A stretch of DNA of 32,131 nt. Source: an uncultured bacterium. Lineage in GTDB: Bacteria > Bacillota_I > Bacilli_A > RFN20 > CAG-826. The stretch is from NCBI GenBank assembly GCA_949299335.1, contig CASGAD010000001.1, forward strand, positions 1-32,131, in the 5' to 3' direction. Positions 17,985-25,857 of this stretch are shown here, one piece after another. Both the position numbers and the translations under genes were made by a program. Below the pieces are notes generated by a model that was not told the origin of the DNA, did not search any database, and was given only the letters and a program-made list of their open reading frames with translations. Each line of letters begins with the position of its first letter. Position 1 is the stretch's first letter.

Positions 17985-20327
17985 ATGAAAAAAGTATTTG
18001 AATTAGAATTTTATGGAAAAAAGCTTGTTGTTGAAACAGGCGAAATTGCAAAACAAGCAGATGGTGCTGTTTTTACAAGATTTAATGATACTGTTGTTTT
18101 ATCAACAGTTTGTTGTTCTGATGAACCTAAAGAAGGCGATTTCTTCCCATTAACTGTTGGTTACGAAGAAAAGCAATATGCTCTTGGAAGAATTCCTGGA
18201 GGATTCTTAAGAAGAGAAGGTAGAGCTAGTGAGCATGCTACTTTAACAGCTAGACTCATTGATAGACCTATTAGACCAATGTTCTCTGATGGATTTAGAA
18301 ACGAAGTTCAAATTGTTAATGAAGTAATGAGTGTCGACTTAGATGCAACTCCAGAAATGACTGCAATGTTTGGCTCTTCACTTGCTTTATGCATTAGTGA
18401 TATACCTTTTGATGGACCAATTGCAGGAGTTTATGTTGGAAGAGTAGATGGTAAACTTATTATTAACCCAACCGTTGAAGAAAGAGAAAAAAGTGATTTA
18501 AATCTCGCTGTTGCTGGAACAAAAGAAGCTATCAACATGGTTGAAGCTGGTGCTAACGAATTAAGCGAAGATGAAATGCTTGATGCCATCATGTTTGGTC
18601 ATGAAGCAATCAAAAAGTTATGTGAATTTGAGATTTCAATTCAAAAGGAAATCGGCAAAGCTAAAAGAGAAGTTAGCTTATATGCTCCAGACCCAGAAAT
18701 AAAAAAAGATATTTATAACCGAATTGGTGAAAAAATGGTCAAAGCAATTTCTATTTTTGATAAATTAGAAAGACAAAATGCAATTGACGCTCTTAAAAAA
18801 GAGATTATTGATGATTATGATTCTAGAGAATACCAAAACGATAAAGATCATCGTTTAAGCATGTTAATGGTTAATGATATTCTTGAAAACATGGTCGCTA
18901 ATGAAGTTAGAAGATTAATTACAGAAGAAAAAATTAGACCTGATGGAAGAAAAGTTGATGAAATTCGTCCATTAGATGCTCAAGTTGATTTATTACCACG
19001 TACACATGGTAGTGCAATGTTTACTCGTGGACAAACTCAAGTTATTTCAACTTGTACACTTGGTATAAAAGATGATGAACAAATTTTAGAAAGTTTATCA
19101 CCAGAAGATACAAAACGCTGGATGCACCATTATAATTTCCCACCATTCTCGGTTGGCGAAATTGGAAAAATGGGTACTCCTGGTAGAAGAGAAATCGGAC
19201 ATGGTGCTTTAGGTGAAAGAGCTTTAAGTTATGTCTTACCATCATTTGAAGAATTTCCATATACAATTCGTTGTGTTGCTGAAGTTTGTGAATCAAATGG
19301 TAGTTCATCTCAAGCAAGTATTTGCGCTTCATGTATGGCATTAATGTCAGCTGGTGTACCAATTAAAAGAATGGTAAGTGGTATCGCTATGGGATTAATT
19401 ACAAGTGGACCACTTGATGGAAAACATCCATATACAATCTTAACTGATATTCAAGGACTAGAAGATCACTTTGGTGATATGGACTTCAAAGTTGCAGGTA
19501 CCGAAGTTGGTGTTACAGCTCTTCAAATGGATATCAAAATTAAAGGTGTTACAAGAGAAATTTTACATGATGCTTTAATGCAAGCTCATGGTGCTAGAGC
19601 AAAAATTAGAGAAGTAATGTCTCAAGCGATTGGTGAACCAAGAAAACAATTATCTAAATATGCTCCTAAATTTGAAACATTCTATATTGATAAAGACAAG
19701 ATTAAGGATGTTATCGGAACTGGCGGAAAAGTTATTAACGATATTATTGAAAAATGTAACAACGTTAAGATTGACATTGAGGATGATGGAAAAGTTACTA
19801 TTTATCACACAGATTTAGATTCAATCTTGAAAGCAAAAGGAATTATTAGTGATATTGTTAAAGAATTTAATATTGGCGAAGAATACGAAGGTGAAGTCAC
19901 TAGGGTAGAAGATTATGGAGTATTTGTAAGACTTTGTGGAGATAAAGAAGGTTTATGTCATGTCTCTAGCTTACAATGGACATATTTAAAAGATGCTCAT
20001 GATTTTGCAAAAGTTGGTGATGTTCTTAAAGTAAAAGTTATTGGTATTGATGATCATGGTAAAATCAAACTTTCACATAAAGAATATGAGAAAAAACCTG
20101 AAAACTACGATGAAAGACCTGCAAAGAAAGATTTCAAAAAAGATCAAAAAAGAGACTACAAAAAGCCAAACACAAATTCAAATCCTGAGTCAAAAGCAGT
20201 AGCTCAAATGAAAGAAGAAGGATTTAAGGAATATAAAAAGAGCGAAGAAATTAAACCTAAAGAAGTAGTTAACGAACCAAAAGAAGAAGAAAATAAAGGA
20301 TTCTTTGGCTTATTTAAAAAGAAATAA
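17985..20327 (+). CDS. pnp: Polyribonucleotide nucleotidyltransferase (PNPase)
   Basis: 3'-5' phosphorolytic exoribonuclease, trimeric. The 780-residue protein contains two RNase PH-like domains, the second with GTEVGVTALQMDIKIKGV carrying the catalytic aspartate, then KH (about 562-620, VIGTGGKVI) and S1 (about 625-700, EGEVTRVEDYGVFVRL). Beyond the S1 domain is a Lys-rich tail of about 80 residues ending in FFGLFKKK, not part of the conserved core. The 118-base upstream region has a weak hairpin (17884-17898) and a purine-rich GAAGAGAAG ribosome binding site. It heads an RNA-decay cluster with yfcE and an RNase J-like gene. Confidence 0.97.
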   Translation: MKKVFELEFYGKKLVVETGEIAKQADGAVFTRFNDTVVLSTVCCSDEPKEGDFFPLTVGYEEKQYALGRIPGGFLRREGRASEHATLTARLIDRPIRPMFSDGFRNEVQIVNEVMSVDLDATPEMTAMFGSSLALCISDIPFDGPIAGVYVGRVDGKLIINPTVEEREKSDLNLAVAGTKEAINMVEAGANELSEDEMLDAIMFGHEAIKKLCEFEISIQKEIGKAKREVSLYAPDPEIKKDIYNRIGEKMVKAISIFDKLERQNAIDALKKEIIDDYDSREYQNDKDHRLSMLMVNDILENMVANEVRRLITEEKIRPDGRKVDEIRPLDAQVDLLPRTHGSAMFTRGQTQVISTCTLGIKDDEQILESLSPEDTKRWMHHYNFPPFSVGEIGKMGTPGRREIGHGALGERALSYVLPSFEEFPYTIRCVAEVCESNGSSSQASICASCMALMSAGVPIKRMVSGIAMGLITSGPLDGKHPYTILTDIQGLEDHFGDMDFKVAGTEVGVTALQMDIKIKGVTREILHDALMQAHGARAKIREVMSQAIGEPRKQLSKYAPKFETFYIDKDKIKDVIGTGGKVINDIIEKCNNVKIDIEDDGKVTIYHTDLDSILKAKGIISDIVKEFNIGEEYEGEVTRVEDYGVFVRLCGDKEGLCHVSSLQWTYLKDAHDFAKVGDVLKVKVIGIDDHGKIKLSHKEYEKKPENYDERPAKKDFKKDQKRDYKKPNTNSNPESKAVAQMKEEGFKEYKKSEEIKPKEVVNEPKEEENKGFFGLFKKK

Positions 20328-20328
20328 G

Positions 20329-20877
20329 ATGAAAATATTAATTGCAAGTGATATTCATGGATCTAGAGAAGCTAGTGAAAAATTAGCTTCTTTAGATTCT
20401 TTTTATAATTTTTCACGAATTATTCTTCTAGGCGATATAAATTATAGTGGAGCTAGAAATATACCCCCACATGATTATTACCCTATTGATGTTTGTAAAA
20501 ATTTATTAGGTTTAAAAAATAAGTTAACTATTATTAGAGGTAATTGCGATTCAAGAGTTGATGAATTTGTTTTAGGCATTAAGTTTAGCGATTTATTAAA
20601 AGAAACCATCAACGGACATAATTTTATTATGACCCATGGTGATTTATATAACGAAAACGATTTTACTTACCATAATAACGATGTTTATTTATATGGTCAT
20701 ACCCATGTGTATAAATTAGAAAAACACGATAATCACTATTTTATTAATCCAGGAAGCACAACTTTGCCTAAAGAAAACACCAAAAAATCATATATGATTT
20801 ATGATTTAGAAAAAGATTGTATAACTTTATATTCTTTAGAAGACGATAGCGTTATTAAAACTCTTGAACTTCACTAA
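20329..20877 (+). CDS. yfcE: YfcE/MJ0936-type metallophosphodiesterase
   Basis: Calcineurin-like phosphoesterase of 182 residues, matching the length of E. coli YfcE. Metal-site motifs are all present: SDIHGS (Asp8, His10), LLGDINYSG (Asp36), RGNCDSRVDE (Asn72), THGD (His103) and YGHTH (His124, His126), ending in NPGSTTLPKE. I start it at the ATG two bases after the pnp stop; starting 24 bases earlier would lie inside pnp and add nothing conserved. No strong ribosome binding site is seen, so translation is probably coupled to pnp. Family members hydrolyse phosphodiesters of unknown physiological substrate. Confidence 0.9.
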   Translation: MKILIASDIHGSREASEKLASLDSFYNFSRIILLGDINYSGARNIPPHDYYPIDVCKNLLGLKNKLTIIRGNCDSRVDEFVLGIKFSDLLKETINGHNFIMTHGDLYNENDFTYHNNDVYLYGHTHVYKLEKHDNHYFINPGSTTLPKENTKKSYMIYDLEKDCITLYSLEDDSVIKTLELH

Positions 20878-20911
20878 TTTTTTTATAATAATAAAGCAAA
20901 AGGAAACATAT

Positions 20912-22630
20912 ATGAATGATAAGATAAAAGTATTAGCATTAGGTGGTCTTGATGAAGAAGGAAAAGACCTTTATGTAATTGAAGTTAATGATAACATTTT
21001 TGTTATTGGAGGAGGGTATAAGTATCCAACAAAAGCCACTCCAGGCATTGACTTTATCATTTCAAATTACGATTACTTAAAAAATAATAAAGAAAAAGTT
21101 AAAGGATATATTATTCCTAAAGGTAAAAAGAATATTTTTGGTGCAATTCCTTACATGATTAAGGATGTTCCAGCTCCAATTTATTGTACAGAGTTAACTG
21201 CTTTATACTTAAGAAGATTTACTAAAGCAAGACAAATTGATTATGAGTATGATTTTAGAAAAATAGAATTGCCATGTAAAATCAATATCGGTAATGTTAT
21301 TTTTGATTTCTTCTCAACATGTTCTTCAACTCCATCAACATTTGGTTTTTCAATAAGAACTCCACTTGGAAATATCGTATATAGTGGTGACTTTATTGTT
21401 GAATATGGAAATGATGATTTCTTTAAACTTGATTTAAACTCTTTAGGTAAAATTGCTGAGTATCCAACTTTGCTTTTATTAAGCGAATCTATTAATGCTA
21501 CTAAAATGGGTTATTGTTCCCCATCTCATAAACTTTTACCATTTTTAACTCAAGTCTTTAAAAAAGAGACTGGTAGAATCTTTATGGCCTTACATTCTAA
21601 TAACCTTTATCATATCAATGAAACTATAAAAGCTTGTGTTGAATTTAATAAGAAAATTATATTCTATGATGACACAACACGTGAAATTATAGGACTTAAA
21701 AAATATTGGACAAATTATAACTTTAATCCAAAAAATATCGTTCCAGTCGAAGATATTTTGCGTTATAAGGACGATGATTTAGTCATTATGATTAGCGATG
21801 AAGGCGAAAAAATTTATGAAAAGATTTCTTTACTAGCTAATCACGAAAATGATGAAAAACAAGTTCGTGTTGGTCAAAATGATACATTTATTATGGCTTG
21901 TCCACCAAGTGATAATAATGAAGTTATTGCAACATCAACTATTGATGAAATTTATAAATCTGGATGTCATGTTAGATATTTAACAAGCAAAAATTTAGTT
22001 AAAATGCATGCTTATGAAGAAGATTTAAAGATGCTTCTTTCACTTTTAAAGCCTAAATATTATTTTCCAATTGAAGGGTATTATGTAAATTTACTTGCTA
22101 ATGCTAAATTAGCTTTTGAAATGAGAATTGGTTTAACTCACAACAACATTTTCTTATTAGACAATGGTCAACCATTAGAAATTACTGCTAATGGAGCTTC
22201 TGTAGATTTCTATAATAAAGAAAACATTAATGTTGGTGATATTATGATTGATGGAAGTGGAGTTGGCGATGTTGTCAATGAAATTATTAATGATAGAACA
22301 AGATTGAGTGAAGATGGTGTCGCCGTTTTTGGCGTAGCAGTAAGCAAATCGACTAGGGAAATTATTGCTGGACCAGATGTCCAAATGCGTGGATTCTTGT
22401 TCTTAAAAGATAAAGAAGCAGATATCATGCTAAAAGAAATGACTAAAATGTTCTTAGATGCTGTAAATAAATGGCTTAAAGAAACTAAAACATTCGACAA
22501 TAAGAAATTAGAAGATCAAATAACAGCAACTATTAGCAAATATTTATTAAGAAATTCTAATCGTAACCCAGTTGTTAAGCCTAATGTAATGATAATTGAT
22601 GATTCTTTAAATAGTTCTAAAGCAGTATAA
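20912..22630 (+). CDS. RNase J2-like protein lacking most catalytic metal ligands
   Basis: 572 residues with the RNase J layout: beta-lactamase domain, inserted beta-CASP domain (about 195-350), linker, and the C-terminal domain with RLSEDGVAVFGVAV and GPDVQMRGF. The metal motif HGHEDH of active RNase J aligns to KGKKNI (70-75), so all four ligands are replaced; the later NHSIP motif is CSSTP (137-141) and PVHGEY is PIEGYY. Asp160 of SGDF and one histidine in MHAYEED remain. It should therefore be inactive as a nuclease. The gene lies between pnp and ftsK, where Bacillus has rnjB, so it is probably a J2-type partner of an active RNase J encoded elsewhere. The ATG at 20912 is chosen for the AAAAGGAAAC ribosome binding site; an upstream in-frame start at 20864 would overlap yfcE. 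Confidence 0.88.
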   Translation: MNDKIKVLALGGLDEEGKDLYVIEVNDNIFVIGGGYKYPTKATPGIDFIISNYDYLKNNKEKVKGYIIPKGKKNIFGAIPYMIKDVPAPIYCTELTALYLRRFTKARQIDYEYDFRKIELPCKINIGNVIFDFFSTCSSTPSTFGFSIRTPLGNIVYSGDFIVEYGNDDFFKLDLNSLGKIAEYPTLLLLSESINATKMGYCSPSHKLLPFLTQVFKKETGRIFMALHSNNLYHINETIKACVEFNKKIIFYDDTTREIIGLKKYWTNYNFNPKNIVPVEDILRYKDDDLVIMISDEGEKIYEKISLLANHENDEKQVRVGQNDTFIMACPPSDNNEVIATSTIDEIYKSGCHVRYLTSKNLVKMHAYEEDLKMLLSLLKPKYYFPIEGYYVNLLANAKLAFEMRIGLTHNNIFLLDNGQPLEITANGASVDFYNKENINVGDIMIDGSGVGDVVNEIINDRTRLSEDGVAVFGVAVSKSTREIIAGPDVQMRGFLFLKDKEADIMLKEMTKMFLDAVNKWLKETKTFDNKKLEDQITATISKYLLRNSNRNPVVKPNVMIIDDSLNSSKAV

Positions 22631-22947: not shown

Positions 22948-25857
22948 ATGGCAAAAATTAAAGAAAAAATTTTAAATAGTGTAACTAGTGATTGGATAAA
23001 AGCCACTTGTGGCATATTAATTTCGTTAATAGCAGTGTTTGGAGCATTATCAAATGCTAATTCAAATGACCACTTTATTTATGTAAGCAGATTTTTAACA
23101 TGGTGTCTTTCATTTTTATTTGGAAGTTTTTTAACATATGCAATTTATTTTTTGATTTTTCTTGGTGGAATGTCTTTAACATTTTCAACGAAAAGAATAA
23201 AAGTCACAATCAATATGACCATTTTAGGAATATTCTTCTTAATTTTAGGAACTTTAATTTTAATTGCTAATTCTCAAACAACAGATGGAAGTACTTATTT
23301 AACTTTTAGTAATTTTGAAGAAGTGTTTTATGCTAACATTTTAGATGGTTTCCCAATCGTTTCAACTTTTGAAAATTCTGGTGTTATCGGAATGTTTTTA
23401 GTTGCTTTGATAAATAGTGGAATGACTAATATTGGTAGTAATGTTATTGGTTCCTTATTTTTAGTGGCTGGCGTATTTTTTACATTTGCTAAAGTTGCAA
23501 TTAAATTTACTAAAGTTATTATCGATTATTACATGCAAACATTTGCAAAGAAAACTATTGCTAACGATGCAAGTTTTAATTTAGCTAAAGATATTAGTTA
23601 TGACACAACCGCAATTAACGCTATTAAAACTAACCAAGAAATGAAGCGAAATGAAGCAGCTAAAAACGAAGAAATTGAGAATAAAAAGGCTGTTAATGAG
23701 GAAAAACTTAGTACAACAAAATTTAACGAGCATACAAATAATGATATTTTCCAACCAAAGCAAATTTTTGATGGTAATCAAGCCGGATTAAAAAAAGCAA
23801 CATTTTCAATTGAGCCTGAAAAAGAAGAGCCTCGAGAAGTTAAAGTTGAAGAAACCCATGAAACTGAAAATACTAATAATGAAATCTTTAATGCAGATTT
23901 AAGAAATCAAAATAATAATTATGGTGCTGGTAGTTCAACTCACCAATTTGGTACTCGTATAAGTGACTTATTTACTATTCCTAAACCAAAAAATGAACCT
24001 ATTGTTAAAAATAATAATATTGAGACTAATGAGCACACCGAAGTTCAAAATAATTACAATAATCAAATTACTAGACCTGAAAACGCTCCTAGACAAACTA
24101 AAATTGATACATTAACTAATGAGAACGAAGTAACTTATGAAAGTCATAGTGAGAACGATTCTCAATATGTTAATCAAATGAGTTCAACAAATGTCACTCA
24201 ACCTAAATTTGAAGAAAGTAGTGCTAGTGAAAATAAATTCTCTCGTGAAGAATTGAATGAACTTGCTAATAAAAAACCTCAATTTGTTGATATTGAAAAA
24301 GAATACACAAATAAATTTGAACTTAAAAAACAAGTTAAAAAGAAATTTGACTATCCTAATTCAACTCTTCTTGAAACAAGAGATCAAACTAAAGGAATGG
24401 ACGAAAATATTCAAGTTGCTGATGCTAGAAAGCAAAAAATTAACGAAATATTCGCTGATTTAGGTGTCGGTGCAAATATTGTTTCTTATACAATTGGTCC
24501 TAGTGTTACTCAATATGATTTACAAACAGATAAAAATGTTTCTATTAGTGGATTAAATAAATATATTAACGATATTAGTGTTCGTCTTGGAGGTTTGGAT
24601 ACTCGTTTTGTCCCTATTGTTCAAGGTAAATCAACTAGTGGAATTGAAATCGCAAACGCTAAAAGCAGTTTGGTAAACTTTAAAGATTGTTTAGAAAAAT
24701 TAGACAATGAAGATCGCTCTAAACTAACAATACCATTTGGACTTGACATTAGTGGTAAATTCATTGCTGGTGATTTAAGAGAATTCCCACATTTGCTTGT
24801 TTGTGGTACAACTGGTAGTGGTAAGTCAATCTTTATTCATAGCATAATTATGTCTTTAATCATGAGAAATTCACCTGAAGAATTAAAACTCATTATGGTT
24901 GATCCTAAGAGAGTTGAATTTGGAAAATATAAAGATATTCCCCATTTATTATGCCCACCAATCAATGATTCTAATAAAGCATTTATTGCTTTAAATAAAC
25001 TTGTTGATGTAATGGAAGCGAGATATACATTATTTGAAGACACTGGCGTAAGTAACATTAAACAATATAATCAAGAAGCTTTAGAAAACGGCAGAGATAA
25101 ATTGCCTTATATTGTTTTAATTTGTGATGAATTCGCTGATTTAATGGATACAAATAGAAAATGTAGTGAACCAATTGTTAGAATTGGACAAAAAGCTAGA
25201 GCTGCAGGAATTCACATGATCATTGCTACTCAAAGACCTTCAACAAATGTTATTACTGGCGTTATTAAAGCAAATTTACCTGTTAGAGTTGCTTTAAGTT
25301 GTTCTAGCTATATTGATTCAACAACTATTTTAGGCGAATCTGGCGCGGAAAAACTTTTAGGAAATGGTGATATGCTTGTTATGTGCCCATTATTTACAAA
25401 ACAAGGATTTACTCGTGTCCAAGGTGCTTTTGTCGACAATAAAGAAATTAAAAAGGTGTGCGATTTCCTTAGAGAGAATGGAGAAACTGAATATGATCCA
25501 TTATTCTTAGATTTGGAGGAAAAGAGCAAAGTTCCAATTGACTTAGATGATCAAAGTCAAAAAATGAATAAGGCTTTTGATGACAAATATGAAGAAGTTA
25601 AACGTTGGGTTGTAAATGAAGAATATACTTCAATTAGCAAAATTCAAAGAACATTTGGATTCGGTTTCCCTAGAGCTGGTAAAATATTTACTCAACTCGA
25701 GGAAGACGGTATTGTTGCTAAAGAAAGTGACCCAAATAACGCAAAAGGTCGTAAGGTCTTAGTGCATCATATTGAAACAGTAACACAAAGTGAAAATCCT
25801 GGAAGTAGCGAAGTAACTACTATGGATTATTCTAAAAGAGAAGGTAATTATTATTGA
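22948..25857 (+). CDS. ftsK: DNA translocase FtsK/SpoIIIE
   Basis: Septal DNA pump that clears chromosomes from the division site. 969 residues: four predicted membrane helices (about 20-190), a long Asn/Glu/Lys-rich linker (about 200-440), the alpha-beta motor and the C-terminal winged-helix gamma domain (about 885-955, TSISKIQRTFGFGFPRAGKI). Motor motifs are GTTGSGKS (about 620-627), LIMVDPKRVEF, LICDEFADLM and IHMIIATQRPSTNVITG. It is longer than Bacillus SpoIIIE (787 residues), mostly because of the linker. Placement after an rnjB-like gene matches Bacillus spoIIIE. The TGA stop shares one base with the acpS start. Confidence 0.95.
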   Translation: MAKIKEKILNSVTSDWIKATCGILISLIAVFGALSNANSNDHFIYVSRFLTWCLSFLFGSFLTYAIYFLIFLGGMSLTFSTKRIKVTINMTILGIFFLILGTLILIANSQTTDGSTYLTFSNFEEVFYANILDGFPIVSTFENSGVIGMFLVALINSGMTNIGSNVIGSLFLVAGVFFTFAKVAIKFTKVIIDYYMQTFAKKTIANDASFNLAKDISYDTTAINAIKTNQEMKRNEAAKNEEIENKKAVNEEKLSTTKFNEHTNNDIFQPKQIFDGNQAGLKKATFSIEPEKEEPREVKVEETHETENTNNEIFNADLRNQNNNYGAGSSTHQFGTRISDLFTIPKPKNEPIVKNNNIETNEHTEVQNNYNNQITRPENAPRQTKIDTLTNENEVTYESHSENDSQYVNQMSSTNVTQPKFEESSASENKFSREELNELANKKPQFVDIEKEYTNKFELKKQVKKKFDYPNSTLLETRDQTKGMDENIQVADARKQKINEIFADLGVGANIVSYTIGPSVTQYDLQTDKNVSISGLNKYINDISVRLGGLDTRFVPIVQGKSTSGIEIANAKSSLVNFKDCLEKLDNEDRSKLTIPFGLDISGKFIAGDLREFPHLLVCGTTGSGKSIFIHSIIMSLIMRNSPEELKLIMVDPKRVEFGKYKDIPHLLCPPINDSNKAFIALNKLVDVMEARYTLFEDTGVSNIKQYNQEALENGRDKLPYIVLICDEFADLMDTNRKCSEPIVRIGQKARAAGIHMIIATQRPSTNVITGVIKANLPVRVALSCSSYIDSTTILGESGAEKLLGNGDMLVMCPLFTKQGFTRVQGAFVDNKEIKKVCDFLRENGETEYDPLFLDLEEKSKVPIDLDDQSQKMNKAFDDKYEEVKRWVVNEEYTSISKIQRTFGFGFPRAGKIFTQLEEDGIVAKESDPNNAKGRKVLVHHIETVTQSENPGSSEVTTMDYSKREGNYY

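Follow-up and report, generated by a model that had tools for sequence, protein, structure and literature searches.

The rnjB gene of an uncultured bacterium of a Bacilli/Mollicutes-type lineage, whose relatives are animal-gut MAGs, encodes an RNase J2 that has lost both metal sites, and this protein is probably a pseudonuclease, most likely serving in a J1/J2 heteromer as the subunit that does not cut. Judged from the sequence, the protein very probably no longer cuts RNA and, by analogy with characterised J2 proteins, it would bind J1. Both the loss of nuclease activity and the role as a partner of J1 are proposed because metal-holding residues have become strictly kept lysines in a genome that has an intact J1. 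The gene lies in a window of 32,131 nucleotides (contig CASGAD010000001.1, positions 1 to 32,131, forward strand), which is the whole stretch of DNA that was analysed.

Identity of the gene and its surroundings

The gene, its domain and its neighbours map to the following positions of the window:

17985-20327, + strand: pnp (PNPase), upstream of rnjB and conserved in the genus
20329-20877, + strand: YfcE-type phosphodiesterase gene, directly upstream of rnjB, missing here in 4 of 24 genus members
20900-20905, + strand: Shine-Dalgarno-like AAGGAA, which supports the ATG at 20912 over the TTG at 20864
20912-22630, + strand: coding sequence of the RNase J2 (rnjB) putative pseudonuclease, 572 aa, from the open reading frame, homology and tree
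22283-22591, + strand: RNase J C-terminal domain PF17770 (RNase_J_C), residues 458-560
22948-25857, + strand: ftsK/spoIIIE, downstream, also adjoining rnjB in sister genera

The reading frame runs uninterrupted from the ATG at 20912 to the stop at 22630 and gives a full-length J2 of 572 aa, which belongs to the RNase J family by end-to-end sequence homology covering the MBL core, the beta-CASP and the C-terminal domain. The last of these, described as well kept in an earlier note on this DNA, is matched by Pfam with 68 bits and, in known RNase J, serves for oligomerisation. The beta-CASP domain is matched by Pfam RNase_J_b_CASP (PF22505), no Pfam model reached the MBL core in this search, and the match to NCBIfam TIGR00649 (350.8 bits) falls under its 400-bit cut-off. 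The closest solved structures are those of Staphylococcus epidermidis RNase J2 (6k6w, 8yyf-k; E ~1e-87, residues 2-559), with Bacillus subtilis RNase J1 ranking after them among the PDB matches. An AlphaFold model built from 6 sequences reached a pLDDT of 58 and a pTM of 0.48, and supports no claim made here.

A search of the whole genome for the RNase J C-terminal domain found two genes, the window gene and a second one on contig C26 (L001). The latter keeps HGHEDH, THSIP, DTGDF, SGH and HGEY intact, so that it is a canonical J1, the kind of intact RNase J for which the earlier note proposed a search of the genome. The J2-type assignment made in that note was confirmed by trees (a quick-search mixture-model tree and FastTree): with the motif columns excluded, the mixture-model tree separated J2 from J1 rows at a branch whose SH-aLRT support is 100, and the J1 rows (n=57), all of which keep every ligand, formed a single clade at full support. 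The window gene is therefore confirmed, at the level of sequence, as RNase J2, the orthologue of rnjB. As in the RNase J2 subfamily, it coexists with a canonical J1, whereas the site-1 histidines H74, H76 and H142, kept in characterised J2s, read K, K and S.

The order pnp, phosphodiesterase, rnjB and ftsK recalls the surroundings of rnjB in B. subtilis, where the gene has the pnpA region on one side and spoIIIE on the other and is thus near ftsK/spoIIIE, as at the window locus. Within the genus, pnp adjoins rnjB in all 24 loci and the phosphodiesterase is absent from the rnjB locus in L014, L022, L025 and L026, whereas flanks of 1.5 kb around rnjB in sister genera showed no adjoining pnp. This linkage had been offered as support for a role in RNA decay; since the pnp adjacency was seen in the genus only and the phosphodiesterase is absent in 4 of 24 members, neither is strong functional evidence. 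As a separate observation, the PNPase (17985-20327) carries a long, charged, lysine-rich tail of ~80 residues behind its S1 domain.

Replacement of the metal ligands

In the numbering of B. subtilis J1, site 1 comprises H74, H76, H142 and D164, and site 2 comprises D78, H79, D164 and H390 (PMC5383250, PMC7864078). Six of the seven metal ligands are replaced in the window J2 (H74 by K70, H76 by K72, D78 by N74, H79 by I75, H142 by S138 and H390 by E388), with site 1 reading K, K, S, D and site 2 reading N, I, D, E. The only survivors are D164, as D160, and the SGH histidine H368, as H366. The motifs, all located by alignment, are the following:

21119-21136, + strand: KGKKNI replacing HxHxDH, codons 70-75 (H74K, H76K, D78N, H79I)
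21320-21334, + strand: CSSTP replacing THSIP, codons 137-141 (H142 to S138, a position that is A or S in the genus)
21383-21394, + strand: SGDF, codons 158-161; bridging aspartate D164 retained as D160 in 24/24
22001-22024, + strand: KMHAYEED at the SGH motif region, codons 364-371; phosphate-side His retained as H366 in 24/24
22067-22084, + strand: PIEGYY replacing PxHGEY, codons 386-391 (H390 to E388; E in 22/24, K in 2/24)

The reading of KGKKNI as the equivalent of HGHEDH, together with CSSTP and PIEGYY in an open frame, was already made in the earlier note and is borne out by alignment with J1 and J2 proteins. KGKKNI (70-75) aligns gap-free to HGHEDH of the J1 of the same genome and to HGHEHA of S. 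epidermidis J2, and this J1 shows THSIP at the position of CSSTP (137-141) and PAHGEY at that of PIEGYY (386-391). A shifted ligand motif is excluded, with the flanking columns G77, Y91, D160, H366, P386 and G389 in register.

Fixation in the genus and selection

The gene is present in 24 of the 26 genomes of the genus; the other two are one with a 27-residue C-terminal fragment only and a 70% complete genome. Among the 24 genes, position 70 is K in 23 and R in 1, position 72 is K in all, position 74 is N in 22, position 75 is variable, and position 138 (H142) is A in 17 and S in 7. The ligand loss is thus neither chance nor sequencing error, because these close relatives carry the same [KR]-x-K without exception. 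All 51 J2s compared from sister genera of the same order (51/51) have His at H74, H76 and H142, and in them H79 and H390 are already lost; genus g7 and some rows that were aberrant or partial do not belong to this set. Between the window genus, at >=58% identity, and the rest, at <=46%, no gene of intermediate similarity turned up among 224 genomes (35 genera) searched across the family.

Some minor observations concern the same sequences. Cysteines C92, C137, C202, C242 and C352 of the window J2 are fixed in the genus; C202, C242 and C352 stand where sister genera have Thr or Ala, and C137 adjoins the lost H142. The J2 of genome G044, a good assembly, is seemingly split over three frames (L101, L125, L126), either by frameshifts or by sequencing error, and G075, G101 and G111 (91-93% complete) yielded a single RNase J of the J1 type, a possible case of J2 loss.

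Codon maximum likelihood gave an omega of 0.023 for J2 and 0.018 for J1 in the same genus, values that are approximate because synonymous sites are saturated at this scale, and the pairwise omega of J2 in eleven pairs ranged from 0.047 to 0.190, about two-fold above J1. The gene is therefore under purifying selection by both approaches and, as the earlier note had it, is not decaying. On the genus tree, positions 70 to 75 show 1, 8, 0, 7, 2 and 7 amino-acid changes; K72, between neighbours that change 8 and 7 times, underwent six codon changes, all of them synonymous (AAA/AAG). About a quarter of all J2 positions are invariant in the genus, so that single invariant residues are unremarkable and it is the alternating pattern that counts. 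This alternating constraint indicates that the every-second-residue register of HxHxD survives as KxKxN, something that a site in decay would not be expected to show. Lost catalytic residues in a frame under purifying selection mark the window J2, from its sequence, as a pseudoenzyme. Shifted ligands, the lack of an active-type RNase J and relaxed selection were each looked for, and none was found.

A proposed partner of J1 and the alternatives

The protein keeps the RNase J fold, the beta-CASP and the C-terminal oligomerisation domain, and in a complex with J1 it would stabilise and position the catalytic subunit and perhaps hold RNA without cleaving it. K70 and K72, at the former metal-histidine positions, would lie beside the retained D160 and the new E388 and, if they face the pocket, are likely to make salt bridges that replace the metal structurally. 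A more far-reaching proposal, which we consider tentative and short of probable, is that the KxKxN pocket has been rebuilt without metal, the ammonium groups of its two lysines, paired with D160 and E388, standing in for the metal charge and locking J2 as a dedicated non-cutting subunit, with complete metal loss recurrent in Bacilli and J1/J2 as a bacterial counterpart of CPSF73/CPSF100.

A structural role of J2 as a partner has been proposed before. The window J2 shares full-length homology, an intact J1 paralogue and the loss of second-metal ligands with the J2s of Bacillota (B. subtilis RnjB, S. epidermidis 6k6w and those of S. aureus and E. faecalis), but in the characterised proteins the site-1 histidines are still present, along with metal binding or weak activity, whereas the window protein has fixed K, K and A/S at H74, H76 and H142. 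The S. aureus J2 mutant H76A-G-H78A grows as wild type, which the deletion of J2 does not, and a structural role was proposed by the authors (PMC3937233). Likewise, the E. faecalis J2 mutants H69A and H71A are inactive and bind J1 with a nearly unchanged KD (81 and 89 vs 74 nM; PMC5383250). However, pilus production in E. faecalis is reported to require J2 activity (PMC5383250), which indicates that this activity is not dispensable everywhere, and this need, together with the mostly monomeric state of S. epidermidis J2 alone (PMC7864078), suggests that the role of J2 may differ between lineages. Outside bacteria, CPSF100 and INTS9, eukaryotic MBL/beta-CASP pseudonucleases that partner CPSF73 and INTS11, belong to the same superfamily and have likewise lost metal ligands next to an active paralogue, INTS9 being unable to coordinate the ions (PMC7980224). 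They are not orthologous to the window J2, however, heterodimerise via C-terminal domains of another kind and are parts of large 3′-end processing complexes, whereas the J1/J2 complex of the window lineage is a predicted one.

Among the other explanations, an RNA-binding regulator independent of J1, whose emptied channel would bind 5′ ends or single-stranded RNA and shield them from J1, would fit the invariant phosphate-side H366 and the positive charge added by K70, K72 and K364. Such a role is unlikely, given that known J2s bind J1 with a KD of ~80 nM (PMC5383250), that the C-terminal domain is kept, and that many J1-conserved positions are lost from the beta-CASP, the least conserved domain of the protein (mean identity 0.57). 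It is very doubtful that the protein is still an active nuclease with a rebuilt metal site, for instance one made of D160, H366, E388 and the genus-fixed Cys137: the genus shows no variation at D160, H366 and C137, but the three site-1 histidines are all gone and two of them are now lysine. Lysine is a poor ligand of Zn or Mn at neutral pH. The J2 of S. epidermidis does work with a single metal and altered ligands (PMC7864078), but the change of one such His abolishes the activity of E. faecalis J2 (PMC5383250). Equally slim are the chances that J2 partners PNPase, or another next-door product, instead of J1; the constant adjacency of pnp in the genus and an S. epidermidis J2-PNPase interaction cited in PMC6759994 would speak for it, but that adjacency was not found in the 1.5 kb flanks of the sister-genus loci. 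Finally, a decaying gene heading for loss, to which the roughly twice faster evolution of J2 than J1 and a few more distant genomes with one RNase J only could point, is hardly credible, as it is rejected by the selection tests, by a frame that is open in the 24 genus genomes with the gene and by the conservation of the replaced residues.

Repeated loss in Bacilli

No J2 row in the tree retains all six scored ligands and most retain site 1 only, thus matching the single-metal J2 of S. epidermidis, so that the sequences read as a degeneration series from a two-metal J1 through a one-site J2 to a metal-free J2. In the class-wide trees, the starred branches force at least 5 changes to complete loss of the site-1 histidines, in both trees, with such loss in the window genus, parts of genus g7, genomes that read TGA as Trp (TNSASYN, TDVKNES, GYPSQSN), family f26 (TRFGERT) and one f16 genus (TSAFETN); genus g7 also holds intermediates (THGHDSM, THGFDSV, TEGNDCI). 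Wherever a J1 was fetched from genomes whose J2 lacks all these histidines, it was canonical. In the TGA=Trp genomes sampled, the RNase J that accompanies J1 resembles the window J2 in the loss of all site-1 histidines, the intact J1 in the genome and its grouping with J2, but its loss is independent and involves other replacements (TNSASYN, TDVKNES), without KxK. The statement of the earlier note that the window protein had gone further than J2 therefore holds against the characterised J2s, but not as an isolated case. In the literature searched, no metal-free RNase J2 and no description of J2 as a pseudoenzyme was found, nor were the complete replacement of the site, the fixation of KxKxN or its recurrence across Bacilli.

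A non-cutting J2 that partners J1 bears on the open question of what makes Bacillota retain a second RNase J paralogue that has hardly any activity. The window lineage would be a natural, fixed and selected version of the S. aureus double-His-to-Ala J2, and at least 4 other lineages likewise; the repeated loss of the site argues for a non-catalytic conserved role of J2 and offers natural separation-of-function proteins. The annotation of such genes as 'ribonuclease J' may thus be functionally wrong, including in Mycoplasma-type minimal genomes, a label that here stands for TGA read as Trp plus small size.

Two further observations were made on these lineages. Genus g7 (L149-L171), of the same family as the window genus, offers a natural degeneration series of J2 active sites that starts at HxHxD, passes by way of partly lost sites and ends in complete loss; most of them lack D164 as well. 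In the TGA=Trp family f22 (L256, L258, L259, L260, L265, L267), H76 has become Lys independently of the window genus (TDVKNES, TDAKNES), mostly together with Asp at H74.
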